Below, piece by piece: positions 1,637-20,217 of a stretch of DNA of 23,958 bases. The translations under genes and the position numbers were made by a program. The notes beneath the pieces are model-generated. The model did not search any database and had not been told where the DNA came from. It saw only the letters and a program-made list of their open reading frames with translations. Origin of the DNA: a virus; the IMG/VR virus record IMGVR_UViG_3300021335_000092, positions 1 through 23,958 of that record; one strand, 5' to 3'. Positions within the stretch are counted from its first letter, which is position 1. Every line of letters begins with the position of its first letter.

Positions 1637-1705
1637 GGTTATGTCGCTGTGTGTCTCACATTGACAATACAAGTATATATTTAATAAACCACATATTCAA
1701 GAACT

Positions 1706-1740
1706 TTAACATTTTTAACATTTGTTCCACAATGTTCCAC
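1706..1740. promoter_or_regulatory. Operator-like cluster: two TTAACA boxes and two TGTTCCAC half-sites
   Basis: TTAACA occurs at 1706-1711 and 1715-1720. The octamer TGTTCCAC occurs at 1723-1730 and again at 1733-1740, a 10-bp direct repeat matching one arm of the parS-like palindrome at 1621-1636. On the minus strand, TATACTTG (about 1670-1677) resembles a Bacteroidetes -7 element (TAnnTTTG). The cluster therefore probably controls the gene starting at 1606. Confidence 0.45.
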
Positions 1741-7794: not shown

Positions 7795-8301
7795 TTAGAC
7801 CTTCTCCTTCTCACATAGGTATACCCTGCTCTTTATTGAGCGAACGAAGATGTCTAGCTTATAGTACACCTCATCCTGCTCATCCTTATCTAATTGTTCG
7901 ACCAGCCTTAAGAACCTATTCTCCTGGATCATTGTTGCTAGCTTATGCGTGAGCTCCACGTTCTGCTGGTACAAGCTATTGTTCTCAACAATATACTCCG
8001 CGATAGACTTCTTGTCACTCCTGGGTGATAAACTATAGCGTAACGACTCCGCTAATAAATTAAAGCGCTCGTGCTCTAGTGCATGAGGCATTACTTTTTT
8101 TAATGCATGAAGCACGGTCGCGTGGTCCCTATTAAGGGACTTGCCTAATTCAGCGAATGACATCTTAGGATAAACCTCCCTGCCTATCTTAAAATAAACA
8201 GCCCTGGCGTATACGGCCTCCCTCTTTCTTAGCTTGCCGCCAATGTCATAACCTACCTCCTTGTCAATTAGTTTTTTTATAACCTCCAACTTGTGACTCA
8301 T
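7795..8301 (-). CDS. Stand-alone DnaA domain IV-like DNA-binding protein (168 aa)
   Basis: The segment YPKMSFAELGKSLNRDHATV (about residues 44-63) followed by LHALKKV matches the C-terminal domain IV signature of DnaA, the helix-turn-helix that reads DnaA boxes (S--EIG--F-RDHTTVLHA). The N-terminal helices RKREAVYARAVYFK also align with the start of that domain. The AAA+ ATPase and domains I-III are absent. A C-terminal coiled-coil-like region (NSLYQQNVELTHKLATMIQE) may dimerise it. It could bind DnaA boxes to start phage replication, compete with host DnaA, or act as a regulator. The gene overlaps both neighbours in the run leading to terminase. Confidence 0.8.
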   Translation of the reverse strand: MSHKLEVIKKLIDKEVGYDIGGKLRKREAVYARAVYFKIGREVYPKMSFAELGKSLNRDHATVLHALKKVMPHALEHERFNLLAESLRYSLSPRSDKKSIAEYIVENNSLYQQNVELTHKLATMIQENRFLRLVEQLDKDEQDEVYYKLDIFVRSIKSRVYLCEKEKV

Positions 8302-10629: not shown

Positions 10630-10859
10630 AATATTCTTATTTCGTTGTTTGTTTCTATCCATACCTTGGCCCCACAAGACAGTGGCTTATCAGGGCTGTA
10701 TATTATCCTACACGCAACATCACCTGATCCATCTAATACCTCAACCTCTTTGGCATAGTCATTAGACCTATACGTCTTGCAAGTAATGACCGGCTCCCTT
10801 TTACCTGTCCTTGTGTTAGAGCGTATCTTATGCTGGTTAACGTGTATTATCTTCTTCAT
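10626..10859 (-). CDS. Small conserved phage protein (HVNQH-RSN-TGKREPVIT family, 77 aa)
   Basis: The protein starts MKKIIHVNQHKIRSNTRTGK and contains REPVITCKTY, VACRIIYSPDKPLSCGAKVW. It is a small all-beta protein with a hallmark N-terminal IHVNQ--IR-N--TG-REPVIT and a YSPDKPLSCGA-VWIET motif, which I recognise from many podo- and siphophages, also of unknown function. The gene is in ATGA overlap with the sigma-factor gene upstream and with the next gene downstream. Confidence 0.8.
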   Translation of the reverse strand: MKKIIHVNQHKIRSNTRTGKREPVITCKTYRSNDYAKEVEVLDGSGDVACRIIYSPDKPLSCGAKVWIETNNEIRIL

Positions 10860-11392
10860 ATCAAATTGTAGTCCCCATTCTTAAAATCCTCGTAATCCTC
10901 AGCGAACAGGTCCTTTAGTACTTGTTTGTTTTGCTTCATAGAGTGGTGTATACTCGTTAGGCTTATGCCGGTACCCCTCGCAATGTCTCGTAGGCTGTAG
11001 TCAGTCCTTAAGTATTTATTTGAGAGTATCCTGTCATACTTGTGCCAGGAATCTATTTCCTTATTTATCTTTGTCATCAGTCGGCTAAAGGCCGACTCCA
11101 TAGCCCCATCAAATACTACCGAATCATCAATAGCATCAGACTCCCTCACCTCAAAGAATGTATACTTAGACTTAGACTTCTTGTACATGATAAACATATT
11201 CTTTAGCGTCACATAAATAAAAAACCTATTCACCTCCTCATCATCATACATTATCCTTTTCTCGTCCTTAACATACTTATGTATCCTGAGGTACATTGAC
11301 TGCACAATATCCTCCGCCACGTGCCTGTCACACCCAAACCCTATCGTCATCCTTAGCCACAGATCGTGGTTCTTTGCTAATCGCTCAAGCAT
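10856..11392 (-). CDS. Phage-encoded sigma-70 family (ECF-like) sigma factor
   Basis: This 178-residue protein has a region 2-like block CDRHVAEDIVQSMYLRIHKY (about residues 20-40) followed by FIYVTLKNMFIMYKK (core-binding and -10 recognition helices). It also has a region 4-like helix-turn-helix, DYSLRDIARGTGISLTSIHH (about residues 130-150). Regions 1 and 3 are absent, as in ECF-type factors. It would redirect host RNA polymerase to phage promoters, plausibly late or middle ones. It overlaps the RusA gene (16 bases) and the next gene (4 bases). Confidence 0.85.
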   Translation of the reverse strand: MLERLAKNHDLWLRMTIGFGCDRHVAEDIVQSMYLRIHKYVKDEKRIMYDDEEVNRFFIYVTLKNMFIMYKKSKSKYTFFEVRESDAIDDSVVFDGAMESAFSRLMTKINKEIDSWHKYDRILSNKYLRTDYSLRDIARGTGISLTSIHHSMKQNKQVLKDLFAEDYEDFKNGDYNLI

Positions 11393-13705: not shown

Positions 13706-14296
13706 TTACTTCTTTTTTGCAATTACTAATTGTTGTTTGAGGAACTTCTCGTCATCCTCTTTGACGATATACTTAGACTTAACGGTGTCTAGTGAACCGT
13801 TCTCTGTTTGTAGATAAGCTATCACCTTATCAAGTGCCGCGCCAGTGCGGGGTAACCTATCCTTGTCCTTGAACTGATGGTCTGAAACGCCCTTGCTTGG
13901 CCGATTTGAGAAGTCAGCGTCCTTGGTGTCGTCGATTAAGAACAACCCGTTTAACGCGTACTTTCTCGCATAAGATGATGAACTACCAAAGGACTGTGAA
14001 ATGTCCATACCTTTCTTTGACATCTCGATACCGGCTGAGGCATATACCTCTGCCTTGGTACCCTCGTCGTCCCATACGATCGCCTTGGCTCGCACCATAA
14101 ACGTCCCTGAGACCTCGATAATTTCGTCGGACACTACGAGGGATAAACCATACTTATCAAGTATAGGCTTAGCGGCCTCTAGGATGTCCTCCTGGTTACG
14201 GTAATAATACTTACCAAAACTGTTGTACTGGCTCTTTGGAGCCTTTAACTCTAGCTGTACCTTGGACAGCCTTTGTCTAAAAGTCAATGTTTCCAT
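13706..14296 (-). CDS. erf: ERF-family single-strand annealing recombinase
   Basis: The core signature of ERF proteins is present as QSFGSSSSYARKYALNGLF then LIDDTKDAD (about residues 100-130), the Gly-rich SSYA-KYAL--LF-I-D--D motif. The upstream region (YNSFGKYYYRNQEDILEAAK; YGLSLVVSDEI) also fits. The 196-residue length is typical. ERF anneals complementary strands during phage genome circularisation and recombination and pairs naturally with the RecE-like nuclease at 8604. The ATG overlaps the 61-residue gene upstream (20 bases), and the SSB gene follows within one base. Confidence 0.92.
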   Translation of the reverse strand: METLTFRQRLSKVQLELKAPKSQYNSFGKYYYRNQEDILEAAKPILDKYGLSLVVSDEIIEVSGTFMVRAKAIVWDDEGTKAEVYASAGIEMSKKGMDISQSFGSSSSYARKYALNGLFLIDDTKDADFSNRPSKGVSDHQFKDKDRLPRTGAALDKVIAYLQTENGSLDTVKSKYIVKEDDEKFLKQQLVIAKKK

Positions 14297-14462
14297 TCTG
14301 TAGTATTTCTGATTTAACTAGCTGTTTGAACTCGTCAGTAACATCCTTATGGCACAGCTCTACCACTAAGGTTGTTAGGCGCGTAATGCGCTCCGCGTAC
14401 TCGTACTGTTTCTTCTGAGACCGCGATAATGTTTCTTTTAAGAACTCTATTAATTCAATCAT
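14277..14462 (-). CDS. Hypothetical helical protein (61 aa)
   Basis: The protein starts MIELIEFLKETLSRSQKKQY and is helical throughout, ending SEILQNGNIDF. It opens the recombination operon after a terminator at 14516-14540 and overlaps the ERF start by 20 bases. No family is recognised. It could be a coiled-coil adapter, but this is a guess from helicity alone. Confidence 0.6.
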   Translation of the reverse strand: MIELIEFLKETLSRSQKKQYEYAERITRLTTLVVELCHKDVTDEFKQLVKSEILQNGNIDF

Positions 14463-14501
14463 ACCGCTAAGTTAATAAAATAATTGAGACAGCAAATCTT
14501 T

Positions 14502-14518
14502 TTAACAAAGTTTTAACA
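14502..14518 (-). promoter_or_regulatory. Two TTAACA boxes 11 bp apart upstream of the ERF operon
   Basis: TTAACA occurs at 14502-14507 and 14513-14518 on the plus strand (TGTTAA on the minus strand), exactly one helical turn apart as at 4078/4089 and 5158/5169. The orientation is opposite to that of the accessory promoters. They lie between the terminator hairpin and the first gene of the recombination operon. No convincing -7 element is seen, so promoter position is not assigned. Confidence 0.45.
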
Positions 14519-14540
14519 AAAACGGACCCCGAAGGGCCCG
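14516..14540 (-). terminator. UUCG-tetraloop terminator after the M15-like gene
   Basis: On the minus strand CGGGCCC-TTCG-GGGTCCG (14523-14540) is followed by TTTTTGTT. The 7-bp stem includes one G-U pair that works only in the minus-strand RNA, which supports minus-strand termination. It separates the M15-like gene (stop 14580) from the recombination operon. Confidence 0.75.
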
Positions 14541-14579
14541 CAACTGACTAAACAAATAAAGAAACACTTACGCAGAAAC

Positions 14580-14969
14580 CTACCATAAGTATAGTGATGG
14601 CGACTTTAGGTCGTCCGTATCGTAGTAAACCGTGTCGCGAGATAGGGCAAACCTGGTGACGCCTTGCTCCATAAGACTGCGAACTAGTTTTAATCTTTTC
14701 TTTGGCCCTACGCACCTGATACGCACGGCCTTACCAACACGGTGTGAGTCCGTAGACACTAGGCCCATATCATCCGCGACCATCTTAGAGGTATACCCAA
14801 GTATTACCTTAGGTATGTAGTCGTGGCGCCGGCAGGCACGATCTAACGCAACAACAGGCTCCCTCTCCATAAACCTATATCCACTGCCCTTTGCGTCAGG
14901 GCTGTCAAACATAGACCATCTCAATTTCTTGAGTCCTTCCGTGTCCTGTATCTCGCTATAGTTGTCCAT
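14580..14969 (-). CDS. Degenerate M15 peptidase-fold protein (129 aa), probable pseudoenzyme
   Basis: Residues 21-30 FDSPDAKGSG match FDSPDVQGSG of the endolysin at 15669, and the rest aligns end to end without large gaps. The zinc-site residues are broken: the first histidine is kept (SHRVGKAVRI, H76), but the aspartate seven residues on is arginine (R83), and the last histidine is tyrosine (Y115 in TVYYDTDD). The SGFRT loop, which holds a conserved arginine, is LGYTS here. Zinc peptidase activity is therefore unlikely. The frame is intact, so it is probably used as a binding or regulatory protein. Its ATG abuts a terminator (14970-15008). Confidence 0.75.
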   Translation of the reverse strand: MDNYSEIQDTEGLKKLRWSMFDSPDAKGSGYRFMEREPVVALDRACRRHDYIPKVILGYTSKMVADDMGLVSTDSHRVGKAVRIRCVGPKKRLKLVRSLMEQGVTRFALSRDTVYYDTDDLKSPSLYLW

Positions 14970-15008
14970 AAAAAACAGGGGGTCGCACCCGTGTTACTTT
15001 GACCCCCC
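14970..15008 (-). terminator. Terminator placed against a start codon
   Basis: On the minus strand GGGGGGTC (15001-15008), a 16-base loop, then GACCCCCTG (14976-14984) and a six-U run end directly at ATG 14969. The stem is about 8 bp of GC. The 15003-15015 part is a shortened T6ATTCG6 repeat unit. Termination here would separate the lysis block from the M15-like gene; read-through RNA would fold its hairpin over the ribosome site. Confidence 0.65.
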
Positions 15009-15193
15009 GAATAAACCTAAATAATGAAGACCAAATATAAACAACTAATATGAGTATACCAAAAAAAGTGGGCTTGACTTTGTTAAAAAAAAGATGTAAC
15101 TTCGCCCCAAGGTTCTACCGCTTAAGCAACGGACGCCTTAGATAATAAGGAGCAAGCACACGCGCCGCTCCTTTACGATGTGTCAAGGGTGTA
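15009..15193. other. Intergenic region between 3TM holin gene and M15-like gene
   Basis: No gene is seen here. It contains a 7-bp hairpin (AAGGAGC 15147-15153 / GCTCCTT 15167-15173, 13-base loop), an 8-base palindrome GCTTAAGC near 15119-15127, one TGTTAA box (15081-15086), and A/T-rich runs. On the minus strand a GCTTAAGCGGTAGAAC stretch looks like a tRNA D-arm, but no T-arm or acceptor stem can be fitted. Together these suggest the end of the fibre/lysis transcript plus a promoter for the gene at 14969. Confidence 0.5.
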
Positions 15194-15643
15194 TTATTTT
15201 TTATTCTTAATCTGTGCGTACTTCTCAAAGCCTCTAGAGCCGAAGTAGGCGGTATAAGTACAGATTAGTATCGTCTCTAAGAGCGTAATCCAGCGCTCCT
15301 CTATTTCGCACAACCCAAGTGAGTCGAGCACAATGTATAGGGTCATACACACTGTTAGGTATATGATTATTAGTGGCCTGGTTATTTTGGTTAGCTTAAC
15401 ATCTGAGTTGGCGTCCGCCTCCCAGCGGCGGGTAACGCCTTCGAGTTCGTCCTGGTCAAGCTGTAGCAATTGCATAGCAATATCCTTATCGGCCTCGTCG
15501 AGCTCTTTGTTAGAGCTCACTAAGTTCTTTACAATACCAAGCAACCCCTTGTCAGGTATACTATCCCCGAGCGCATCTAATACGCCGCGCTCGCCTATTA
15601 AAAAACCGCCGACCTTAGTGTCCTTAAACTTCTTCTTTTTCAT
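15194..15643 (-). CDS. Three-TM holin-like protein (149 aa)
   Basis: The N-terminal half is soluble and charged (KKKKFKDTKVGGFLIGERGV; VTRRWEADANSDVKLTKITR). Membrane spans follow: PLIIIYLTVCMTLYIVL and WITLLETILICTYTAYF, and the protein ends GSRGFEKYAQIKNKK. The RWEAD--SD--L-K--RPL start to the membrane part and the YFGSRGFEKY end match the 3-TM holin/GTA-holin-like family (PF11351 type). It lies between the M15 endolysin and the M15-like gene, as expected for a lysis cassette. There are two clear spans, with a third short one possible. Confidence 0.8.
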   Translation of the reverse strand: MKKKKFKDTKVGGFLIGERGVLDALGDSIPDKGLLGIVKNLVSSNKELDEADKDIAMQLLQLDQDELEGVTRRWEADANSDVKLTKITRPLIIIYLTVCMTLYIVLDSLGLCEIEERWITLLETILICTYTAYFGSRGFEKYAQIKNKK

Positions 15644-15668
15644 AGTTCAGTAAACATATAGTAGTGCC

Positions 15669-16025
15669 TTAGTAGGTCCACACAACATTAGGCGCCTTAG
15701 CGCTATCTATGTCTACGTGTATGAAACCCTTACCTACCCCTATGCGATTAAAGTGTTTTAATAATATGCAAAGGAGCTCGTACCTCTCCTTGCTGTTGCG
15801 GACTTTTAGGTCCGCCGCCAGGCCCCTTAGGTGGGAGGAGTTAGAAACCCCCCCAGCCCTATGGTTTGCCTCCTCAGTCCTGAACCCACTAGATATCCTA
15901 ATAGGCCTCCCGTACTCCTCACGCACAGCATCTAACAGCACAATAAGCCTGTCGTCTACCATCTGCCCGCTGCCTTGTACGTCAGGGCTGTCAAATTCTT
16001 CGTATTTAAAATACTTAAAGTGCAA
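15669..16025 (-). CDS. M15-family peptidase, probable endolysin (118 aa)
   Basis: A zinc D-Ala-D-Ala carboxypeptidase-like cell-wall hydrolase. The core is complete: FDSPDVQGSG (11-20), SSGFRT (45-50), SSHLRGLAADLKV with H65 and D72 as zinc ligands, and GFIHVDID with H103 as the third. The 118-residue length matches short phage M15 proteins. The start is TTG 16025 immediately after the previous stop TAA (16026-16028); no ATG precedes the conserved N-terminal strand. The neighbouring holin at 15194 would release it. It has no signal peptide, so it depends on a holin. Confidence 0.9.
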   Translation of the reverse strand: MHFKYFKYEEFDSPDVQGSGQMVDDRLIVLLDAVREEYGRPIRISSGFRTEEANHRAGGVSNSSHLRGLAADLKVRNSKERYELLCILLKHFNRIGVGKGFIHVDIDSAKAPNVVWTY

Positions 16026-17680: not shown

Positions 17681-19912
17681 TTAATCACCAAATGCTATCC
17701 AAAAGAAATCCCTACCCTGTCCATTAGAATCCTCTATAACTGCCCTAAAACTTGATGCTGTAACAGAATAAACATAATTCGTACCATTACCACTAGAGCT
17801 AGTTCTTCTTGTAGAAACATGTACAGACCTACAAGCCTTTGGGAATGTTAAAGGAAAGGTTGTTGTTGGATTACTTAATGTTCCATTTACATACCCCCAT
17901 TGCATTATACAAGTGTCTGACAATCTTTGATAAAAATTAGCAGTTACAGTGTCAGAATGCGCAGCTGTTCTAGATGCATAATTCTGCACATTTAATGCAA
18001 CACCATCTAGGTTTAATCCTCCATCTATTTCTACAAACTCAGAGGATGCACTAACTGTTGATGTTTTTAGGTAGTTGTTAGAGTCATATATTACTTGAAA
18101 CCCTTCATCTGTTAATTCTGTTTGGTTTATCGTCTTAGCAAATACCCCATTAGTTTGTCCAAAATCAAAAGAGGTTAATGATGATCCTGTATCAAAATCA
18201 ACGCTACCAGCTCCAATAAAAACATTCCTGTAATAATAGACCCTCATGTAGGCTGTTGTAACATTCTGATTTATGTTTATCTCTATACTTCTGTCTACCT
18301 GAACAAAATCTACATCTGTACTTTCTGAGCTTGTACCTGCTGTTTGTAGAACAACTGTCTTAAGTATATTGTTGAATGAGGAATCAGTAGCAATATCCAT
18401 CCTAACCTCAACATTAACACTACCTACAAAATCAGAAGAAGTAGAATAAACAGTCTGCCCTACAGGTGTGGCATTCATTGAAATCTGCTCTACATAAACA
18501 CCATAGTTCGTACTTGTGATGTTTGCTGATGCACTTAAACTTGTTGTGCCATTATACAAGAAATCCTCAGAGTTGGATGTAAGCGTATCATTAAAGGTGT
18601 TAAATTCTAAGGTGCTTAATCCTGAAAAGGTAAAGTTTTTAGATGTTAGTCCTGTTAGTGATCCTGACCTAATTTGTACTTTAGGAGTGCCACTTGAGTT
18701 TTTAATCACTAAACCACTATCACTATTCACCTCTATCCTATCATCAGGAGACACAATCGCATCAGACTGTATATCCCATCCACCAATAGAACCTGATGTT
18801 GAGGTAATAGAACCTTTAAATTCAGCGTTACCAGAGGTCACCTTAAATTGTGGAGATATAACATCACCCGCTGCATTATCACCAACGCCTGTTAAGAATA
18901 ACTTTGTACCACTTACTGCGAAATCTGTAGCAGTAGCACCTGCAGTAAATCCTGTACTTTGTATTTGACCTGTGGTTATGTTAGAGCCATTAATAATAGT
19001 AGCATCTGCTGTTTTTAGGGAAGTAAAAGTTATTGGTCCATTAAACTGAGTAGACTCAAAAGCACTAGTGAAACTAACAGGTCTCGCTGTCGATGTGCCT
19101 ACATAAGCATTATAAGAAGACCACTCCCTAAGAAACACTTTATTTTGAGTACTTGCGCTATCAGGTGGGGCTTCACTATAATCACTACCATTAGCTGTAA
19201 ACGTAAGAACATTATCTACGAAGTTAAAAGTAGCTGAGGGAGCAGACACGTTAGCAACATCAGTTTCAGAACCAACATAATAAATAATTCCTCTAGCTAT
19301 CTTAGTACCATTATTATCATAGTTTGTAGTATAGTTGCCATAAAAGTTAGCATAGTTTAAATAATAAGAACCCTCCTCACCATCTAAAAGGTCCGCGTCT
19401 AATCCTGAGCTTGCACCATCTACGGTCTTTATTGCTGTTAGTATTTCACCCGCGGTTTGGTCCGCCGTGGCATTATCCTCTATATTAGTAAGTTTAGTTC
19501 TCTCTGCGCCAGTTATAATCTGACCTGATCCAGCTGAGGTCACATCATTATGCGCCGTAACGCTTATGCTTGTTATTGCTGTAGCTGTTACGTCTGCGTT
19601 TGAGTCTACCGTGCCTAACTTAGTTTTCTCAGCGTCAGTAAAGGCGTTAGTGTCACTATTATTCTCGTAGGCCGTCTTAACCTCAGCATCCGTCATTGTT
19701 TGATCGTCAGCGTCTAAGGTTATTGTTTGGGCATTAGACTGGTTTAAGGTAAACACACCACCACCAGTTAAATTAGTGCCAGGGTTAATAGTTATTTGTG
19801 TGTTATTTATAGAATCACCCGTGTCAGAGATACTATCATCTAGCGCGATTATAGCCTCCCTTACAGTGTCAAAGTTCTTAGAATTAGGTATTTTGGATAC
19901 GTCTACCGCCAT
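17681..19912 (-). CDS. Tail fibre/spike protein with receptor-binding C-terminus (743 aa)
   Basis: The N-terminal part (about residues 1-95) reads PNSKNFDTVREAIIALDDSI, typical of a fibre attachment domain. Repeat-like modules follow (SNADVTATAITSISVTAHND; GAERTKLTNIEDNATADQT), then LDADLLDGEEGSYYL, a motif common in marine fibres. Next come a long Thr/Ser/Asn-rich beta shaft and a SIGGWDIQSDAIVSPDDRIE segment. The C-terminus NFYQRLSDTCIMQWGYVNGT ending GRDFFWIAFGD resembles the gp53-like receptor-binding knob. It adsorbs the phage to its host. The start ATG overlaps the upstream gene by 10 bases. Confidence 0.85.
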   Translation of the reverse strand: MAVDVSKIPNSKNFDTVREAIIALDDSISDTGDSINNTQITINPGTNLTGGGVFTLNQSNAQTITLDADDQTMTDAEVKTAYENNSDTNAFTDAEKTKLGTVDSNADVTATAITSISVTAHNDVTSAGSGQIITGAERTKLTNIEDNATADQTAGEILTAIKTVDGASSGLDADLLDGEEGSYYLNYANFYGNYTTNYDNNGTKIARGIIYYVGSETDVANVSAPSATFNFVDNVLTFTANGSDYSEAPPDSASTQNKVFLREWSSYNAYVGTSTARPVSFTSAFESTQFNGPITFTSLKTADATIINGSNITTGQIQSTGFTAGATATDFAVSGTKLFLTGVGDNAAGDVISPQFKVTSGNAEFKGSITSTSGSIGGWDIQSDAIVSPDDRIEVNSDSGLVIKNSSGTPKVQIRSGSLTGLTSKNFTFSGLSTLEFNTFNDTLTSNSEDFLYNGTTSLSASANITSTNYGVYVEQISMNATPVGQTVYSTSSDFVGSVNVEVRMDIATDSSFNNILKTVVLQTAGTSSESTDVDFVQVDRSIEININQNVTTAYMRVYYYRNVFIGAGSVDFDTGSSLTSFDFGQTNGVFAKTINQTELTDEGFQVIYDSNNYLKTSTVSASSEFVEIDGGLNLDGVALNVQNYASRTAAHSDTVTANFYQRLSDTCIMQWGYVNGTLSNPTTTFPLTFPKACRSVHVSTRRTSSSGNGTNYVYSVTASSFRAVIEDSNGQGRDFFWIAFGD
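19499..19624 (-). repeat. 42-residue fibre module shared with the long fibre gene
   Basis: Codons 97-138 of the 743-residue fibre (TKLGTVDSNADVTATAITSI, SVTAHNDVTSAGSG...IITGAER) are a version of the 47-residue unit repeated in the fibre at 22078-23958. The SISVTAHNDVTSAGSG stretch is identical in protein sequence to one repeat there. DNA similarity is looser because synonymous codons differ. Confidence 0.7.
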
Positions 19913-20217
19913 GTGTTTATCTGTTCGAGAATATCATCTTCCTTTAGGGATAACTCAAAAGATAGGTTTGCGTTCCATTGGTAAACGGGGGTATTGTTCT
20001 TGTAGAGTATAACAACAGGCACGGCCTTTATCTTATCACGGAGGCTTTTGTTTTGTTCCTCTAGGCTTGCGTACGTATACTTTACGCCGTCAATACAGGG
20101 TATGTTTACCGAGTTTTTCTCGTTCCATTTAGCGTTTATCTGTACTAGCGTGAATTGCTGGGCCTTAATAGCGTGTGGTAATAAAAAAAATAATCCAAGG
20201 CAAATCAATGTTCTCAT
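19903..20217 (-). CDS. Secreted thioredoxin-like protein (104 aa)
   Basis: The protein starts MRTLICLGLFFLLPHAIKAQ, a clear signal peptide with a likely cut after IKA. The mature part has a strand (FTLVQINAKWNEKN), SVNIPCIDG with one cysteine, YASLEEQNKSLRDKIKAVPV, then VILYKNNTPVYQWNANLSFE. AVPVVILYKNNTPVYQW is the cis-Pro plus edge-strand part of a thioredoxin fold (VPT--LFK-GK-V--W). The active CxxC is missing, so it is not a classical reductase. The ATG overlaps the previous stop as ATGA. The family occurs next to fibre genes in Bacteroidetes phages. Function unknown. Confidence 0.65.
   Translation of the reverse strand: MRTLICLGLFFLLPHAIKAQQFTLVQINAKWNEKNSVNIPCIDGVKYTYASLEEQNKSLRDKIKAVPVVILYKNNTPVYQWNANLSFELSLKEDDILEQINTWR

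Follow-up and report, generated by a model that had tools for sequence, protein, structure and literature searches.

The window analysed here is a stretch of 23,958 nucleotides (positions 1-23,958 of IMG/VR virus record IMGVR_UViG_3300021335_000092). On its minus strand, transcription runs through an endolysin gene (A), a holin gene, a gap of 225 bases, a gene for a second M15-like protein (B), a small gene (14277-14462) and an Erf-type gene, which is the first recognisable member of the recombination module downstream of B (Table 1). The frames of A and B lie exactly where the first-pass annotation of the sequence had placed them. The order around B is stable in relatives and reads endolysin, holin, B, small genes, Erf, SSB, ATPase. 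Among the best cultured matches of the terminase (47.5%) is Nonlabens phage P12024S (Inhavirus, 35.7 kb), which has the same order of M15 endolysin, holin, small genes, Erf and SSB but differs in that a profile search found no homologue of B anywhere in its record. Judging from the promoter type and the nearest cultured relatives, the hosts of the uncultivated phages that carry B are probably Bacteroidota.

Table 1. Features at the border of the lysis and recombination genes (related loci are cited in the text by L numbers)
Feature	Positions	Strand	Remarks
A, M15 endolysin (PF08291)	15669..16025	-	118 aa
Holin, between A and B	15194..15643	-	149 aa; phrog_3427, E 8.9e-16; GTA_holin_3TM below cut-off
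Conserved upstream DNA motif, GCGAAGTTAC-n-TTTTTTTT-AACAAAGTCAAG	15069..15105	-	
Predicted promoter of B, Bacteroidota sigma-A type, TTTG-N20-TATATTTG	15032..15063	-	perfect match
5'-leader hairpin, GGGGGTC/GACCCCC	14978..15007	-	16-nt loop; between promoter and start codon of B
B, M15-fold protein, predicted catalytically dead	14580..14969	-	129 aa
Intrinsic terminator after B, GCGGGCCCTTCGGGGTCCG + T run	14522..14541	-	z -3.16
Direct repeat TGTTAAAACTTTGTTAAA (TGTTAAA)	14501..14518	-	between B and the recombination operon
Erf-type ssDNA annealing protein	13706..14296	-	phrog_155, E 4.5e-41

The endolysin matches PF08291 (E 2e-18) and the endolysin family phrog_894 (E 1.9e-27). It carries H65, D72 and H103, as had been noted before, and also R49; this zinc triad and the arginine are invariant among 27 M15 relatives. 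The AlphaFold2 model of A (pLDDT 96.2, pTM 0.88) is closest to the solved structure 1lbu (Z 14.6, 2.4 Å over 114 residues). Two other genes of the window were noted in passing. One (7795-8301, minus strand), near the terminase gene, encodes a small protein with a DnaA C-terminal helix-turn-helix (PF08299, E 1.1e-10). The other (19903-20217, minus strand), among the tail fibre genes, encodes a 104-aa protein that has an apparent signal peptide and looks thioredoxin-like by eye, with no significant match in PHROGs and none in NCBIfam.

The predicted M15 fold of B and its lost zinc ligands

The proteins A and B align over their core with 26% identity across 117 positions (BLASTP, E 2e-12), and the family profiles of B and of the M15 endolysins match with 99.5% probability (E 4.5e-22, 114 columns). 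The likeness of their DNA, to which the first-pass annotation had also pointed, is present and slightly longer than was stated (CGTCAGGGCTGTCAAA); it simply encodes the conserved FDSPD motif, and the case for homology can dispense with it. The AlphaFold2 model of B (pLDDT 95.2, pTM 0.88) again has 1lbu, the Streptomyces albus G Zn DD-peptidase, as its closest solved structure (Z 13.1, 3.3 Å, 121 residues), and the two predictions give A and B the same fold rather than different ones. Phage and bacterial M15 enzymes and hedgehog domains follow with Z 8 to 9, values that common arrangements can reach as well; for this reason, the case for the fold rests on 1lbu and the sequence profiles. Direct searches with B gave nothing significant in Pfam, PHROGs or NCBIfam, no significant match among PDB sequences and no known nucleic-acid-binding domain. 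Among 18 members of its family, none reaches the curated cut-off of PF08291, and 8 match phrog_894 weakly (best E 0.0052).

All the substitutions reported earlier are found in B. H76 is kept, R83 and Y115 stand at the other two zinc positions, and the arginine of SGFRT is lost, with T60 where A has R49. Searching relatives for this Tyr/Arg pair defines a family, represented by 62 distinct sequences in alignment A2. The third zinc ligand (His103 in A) is Tyr115 in all 62, and the second (Asp72 in A) is replaced by Arg in 44, Lys in 15 and Gln in 3. The first ligand, H76, is kept in 61, the sequence of L024 having Phe. At the position of the substrate arginine, Thr, Val, Met, Ala or Cys is found across the family, and Ser46 of A, which precedes that arginine, corresponds to Leu57. 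An intact catalytic set occurs in none of the 62 aligned sequences, and the further B proteins in a second sample, gathered via the holin and Erf genes, all lack it as well. Two rows with Asp and His in the first residue count were endolysins (L064, L117) and were removed before alignment A2. The full-length M15 partners examined keep H-x2-G-x-A-x-D and the downstream His, with one irregular type-III reading (L158).

Compared with the M15_3/M15A phage endolysins (PF08291, phrog_894), B thus has the same fold and full-length homology, with the zinc Asp and His and the substrate Arg and Ser replaced. On these residues, B should not be classed as an M15 peptidase, since the fold is right and the tested defining features, the zinc ligands and the substrate arginine, fail. 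Its catalytic residues are lost in a conserved, selected family, as is the case in pseudoenzymes, and their loss predicts that B is catalytically inactive. In the former cleft, H76, R77, G79, Y115 and D117 are conserved, and residues particular to B are conserved in EGLxxLxW, FMERxPV, HRxG, KKR and VYxDTD.

The persistence of H76 (61 of 62) together with D117 and Y115 (both 62 of 62) could be taken as a sign of a different working metal or catalytic site, and tyrosine is able to bind zinc in some metallopeptidases. However, the second ligand is replaced by Arg, Lys or Gln, whose side chain would bring a positive or polar group to the place of the metal, and L024 has Phe instead of H76, so that such a site is very improbable. 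The conserved pocket may still bind something, and the predicted fold and cleft resemble those of peptidoglycan peptidases. B might accordingly recognise stem peptides or precursors (cytoplasmic UDP-MurNAc-peptides, lipid II) without cutting them and, for example, protect the wall or block superinfecting phages. A wall-binding factor was among the roles first proposed, but the residues that would anchor the substrate are gone: the arginine that holds the carboxylate (R49 in A; R138 in an M15 DD-carboxypeptidase, PMC11266112 Table 2) is Thr, Val or Met in B, and the serine has become leucine. In addition, B starts with a charged N-terminus (MDNYSEIQDTEGLKK) in which inspection by eye shows no export signal. 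Binding of the wall or its precursors is therefore disfavoured, and we think it quite unlikely.

There is precedent for an M15 fold that is used for binding. The N-terminal domain of hedgehog, an M15-like pseudopeptidase that matches the B model with Z about 8, binds its ligands through the pseudo-active site (PMC11266112). It keeps H140/D147/H182 and binds zinc (PMC11266112 Table 2), whereas B lacks two of the ligands; hedgehog is secreted, whereas B has no visible export signal. Pseudopeptidases that act through protein binding have been reviewed (PMC11266112), and phages are unmentioned in that review of metallopeptidase pseudoenzymes.

A conserved family and its changing endolysin neighbours

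A single-sequence search with B found relatives in 28 viral contigs, and an alignment-based search of IMG/VR raised this to 119 confirmed stretches holding B. In a tree of 77 M15 proteins, B forms a single clade (support 100/100) whose branch is long (1.69). The median pairwise dN/dS is 0.33 for B vs 0.28 for active endolysins, so the frame that had been described as open is also under purifying selection across relatives. The loss of catalytic residues in a duplicate is how decay begins, and B could in principle be a decaying endolysin gene that is open by chance. Against this stand the frame and the invariant residues conserved in 62 distinct sequences, the dN/dS of 0.33, the single clade and the conserved promoter and terminator, which leave the idea with next to no probability. 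Decay of a recent duplicate is ruled out by the conservation; given that conservation, the single clade and the dN/dS, B is not a pseudogene, nor did it arise by a recent local duplication. The description of the pair as a working M15 endolysin next to a degenerate M15 paralogue is thus supported by sequence, structure prediction and the single clade of B.

No clear member of the family was found in the cultured phages or prokaryote genomes searched. In tblastn searches of cultured phages, two of three B proteins had no match and the third gave nothing beyond partial matches, at 31%, with the wall-hydrolase domain of Agrobacterium phages; 84,980 prokaryote genomes gave pattern matches to B but no relative. 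In the holin- and Erf-based samples, only part of the wider phage group has B; the fetched stretch lacks it in many relatives that do carry a type-I M15 endolysin and this holin. Literature searches, mostly without subscription papers, revealed no degenerate M15 endolysin paralogue in phages. B represents a new conserved family of predicted pseudoenzymes in uncultivated phages. The motif FDSPD-x2-GSG is common to B and to the type-I M15 endolysins of these phages, and this close similarity suggests that B was derived from a type-I endolysin. At L136 (4590-4985), an active type-I M15 endolysin has B-like features (a DDLKPP end, RYMDREF and a B-profile score of 92), and it may stand near the root or the ancestor of B.

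The endolysin encoded at B loci varies. Some loci carry a type-I M15 enzyme, as the window does; in others the enzyme belongs to M15_3 but is distinct from that one, or is of a third M15 type (L072). Two other classes also occur, namely an Amidase_2 amidase (L110, E 1.7e-15) and a GH24 lysozyme (L047, E 7.7e-44). On the tree of B, which is weakly resolved, the endolysin class changes about 12 times vs a minimum of 4, with one class possibly wrong (L069, a truncated gene). Closely similar B proteins stand beside unrelated enzymes: the B of L110 (amidase) is 92% identical to that of L107 (M15_3), and the B of L081 (amidase) is 87% identical to that of L077 (M15 type III). An M15_3 match is absent from the whole record in 7 of 20 B-bearing records, which are 22.9-41.3 kb long and may be fragments. 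At L123, B lies amid metallophosphoesterase, nucleotide-kinase-like and DNA methyltransferase genes, and the sole other M15 gene is 8 kb away.

It is this independence from the endolysin class that speaks most strongly against B as a titrator or inhibitor of the M15 endolysin, a role that the first-pass annotation had proposed. A dedicated inhibitor would be linked to a matching endolysin, and B shows no such link; it persists while the class switches. In a broader form, B could delay or tune lysis through cytoplasmic binding to the endolysin or the holin. A dead paralogue would lend itself naturally to a dominant-negative or decoy role, most B genes directly follow the endolysin-holin pair, and the f5 holin lies beside most of them. 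Nevertheless, B is kept beside Amidase_2 and GH24 enzymes and where the record has no M15_3 match, occurs without an adjoining f5 holin (L047/L048, L122/L123), lies far from the M15 enzyme at L123, and has its own predicted promoter and terminator. A factor for lysis timing is for these reasons unlikely.

Other neighbours of B were also recorded. A conserved protein of about 80 aa, f15, is encoded directly before B or overlaps it in L065-L069, L105, L112-L118 and L124, and it is a possible partner of B. In three loci, a tRNA-Ala(TGC) directly follows B (L025:5388-5462, L027:5388-5462, L029:5365-5439).

Predicted control elements around the gene

Lying between the lysis and recombination genes, B is predicted to be a transcription unit of its own. 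The predicted promoter follows the Bacteroidota sigma-A consensus (PMC9723704), although the strict match is not significant in the window alone (2 found vs 0.82 expected). Across 64 related loci, the density of TTG-N17-23-TAnnTTTG within about 400 bases of B is 7.5 times that found elsewhere. A -7 box is present in the 230 bases upstream of B in 62% of loci vs 18% in shuffles, a percentage that, like those below, describes conserved anatomy and not independent origins, since the surveyed loci are related and inheritance inflates motif enrichment. A clear -7 box is missing upstream of B in about a third of loci, and a further one follows B in 75% of loci vs 26% in shuffles.

The conserved motif upstream of the promoter has the form GTAAAGTTAC-n4-TTTTTTTTGACAwwGTCAAGTT in relatives. 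It combines AAGTTAC, a T tract and, in many relatives, the palindrome TTGACnnnGTCAA, and is possibly an operator or a replication element. Its AAGTTAC part, as CGAAGTTAY or AAAGTTAY, is found upstream of B in 57% of 61 loci vs 5% in shuffles. The next element, before the start codon, had been described as terminator-like. In the window, the stem is indeed followed by T's, but most related phages have a matching stem without them, and the element is for this reason better read as a 5'-leader hairpin. The relatives carry GGGGAGG/CCTCCCC, GGGGAGT/ACTCCCC or GGGAGGT/ACCTCCC at the same place, arms that differ and yet match. The hairpin aligns too poorly for covariation to be counted, and matching arms would be circular evidence in stems picked by complementarity. 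The hairpin is limited to the clade of the window, and its own folding z-score is only -1.1 to -1.7. Searches of this intergenic region for tRNA, tmRNA and Rfam families found no tRNA, and a sub-threshold L20_leader hit (21 bits vs 58.7) was taken as chance.

The intrinsic terminator downstream of B is stronger and more convincing than the leader element. A terminator stands there in 70% of 63 loci and the TGTTAAA direct repeat in 48%, both vs 0% in shuffles. Of 31 such repeats on the strand of B in the surveyed loci, 30 immediately follow B and precede the Erf operon, and the repeat is possibly the operator of some regulator. The remaining one is a second copy in the window (1705-1720, minus strand).

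A proposed role inside the infected cell

The reading that we prefer, with a probability of about 0.42, is that B is an endolysin-derived pseudopeptidase that carries out a binding or regulatory task inside the cell and is expressed separately from lysis. An M15 endolysin would have been duplicated, and one copy would have lost its zinc site and the residues that anchor the substrate. The dead copy would then have come under its own promoter at the border of the lysis cassette and the recombination genes, and would have been retained as one family, whatever type of endolysin adjoins it. B would stay in the cytoplasm, as its N-terminus, read by eye, suggests, and would act by binding rather than cutting. 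Its partner would be an intracellular component that governs infection in its early or middle phase, with RNA polymerase, a phage sigma-like factor, or DNA or RNA at B's own locus as candidates.

Several points make a regulatory role the preferred one: the location of the gene, the dense and conserved control elements that flank it, the basic pI (median 9.0 for B vs 8.0 for endolysins), the setting among DNA-metabolism genes at L123 and the precedent of T7 lysozyme. The latter protein (gp3.5) is an amidase that also inhibits T7 RNA polymerase (PMC5445346). The likeness would lie in a phage lysin fold that regulates events inside the cell, which is an analogy of mode; B would work in a comparable way, but without retained hydrolysis. 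T7 lysozyme has an Amidase_2 fold, unrelated to B, and is one bifunctional active protein, whereas here the lytic copy (A) and the non-lytic, predicted dead copy (B) occupy separate genes. The window also encodes a sigma-like protein (10856-11392, minus strand), with weak but consistent matches to Bacteroidota ECF-type sigma factors and phage sigma factors. It is conserved in relatives as the gene family f3, and it could be a partner of B. A more specific version of the proposal, which we hold to be rather doubtful, is that the dead M15 domain attaches to the transcription or DNA machinery, or else to its own locus with its conserved palindromes, leader hairpin and TGTTAAA repeats, and thereby helps to switch between early and late expression. 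B would then be a regulator of lysin descent that works apart from any lytic function.

Dead copies of phage lysis enzymes are easily labelled as endolysins or as decay. The B family is an old, selected copy, predicted to be dead, whose fate no longer follows that of its active relative: B stays, and the neighbouring endolysin has been swapped between unrelated chemistries. The conserved residues of FMERxPV and HRxG are direct targets for mutation. If B binds wall precursors, it would be a phage-made sensor of peptidoglycan peptides. If B is regulatory, it would extend the T7-lysozyme theme to another fold, with the two roles split between genes.
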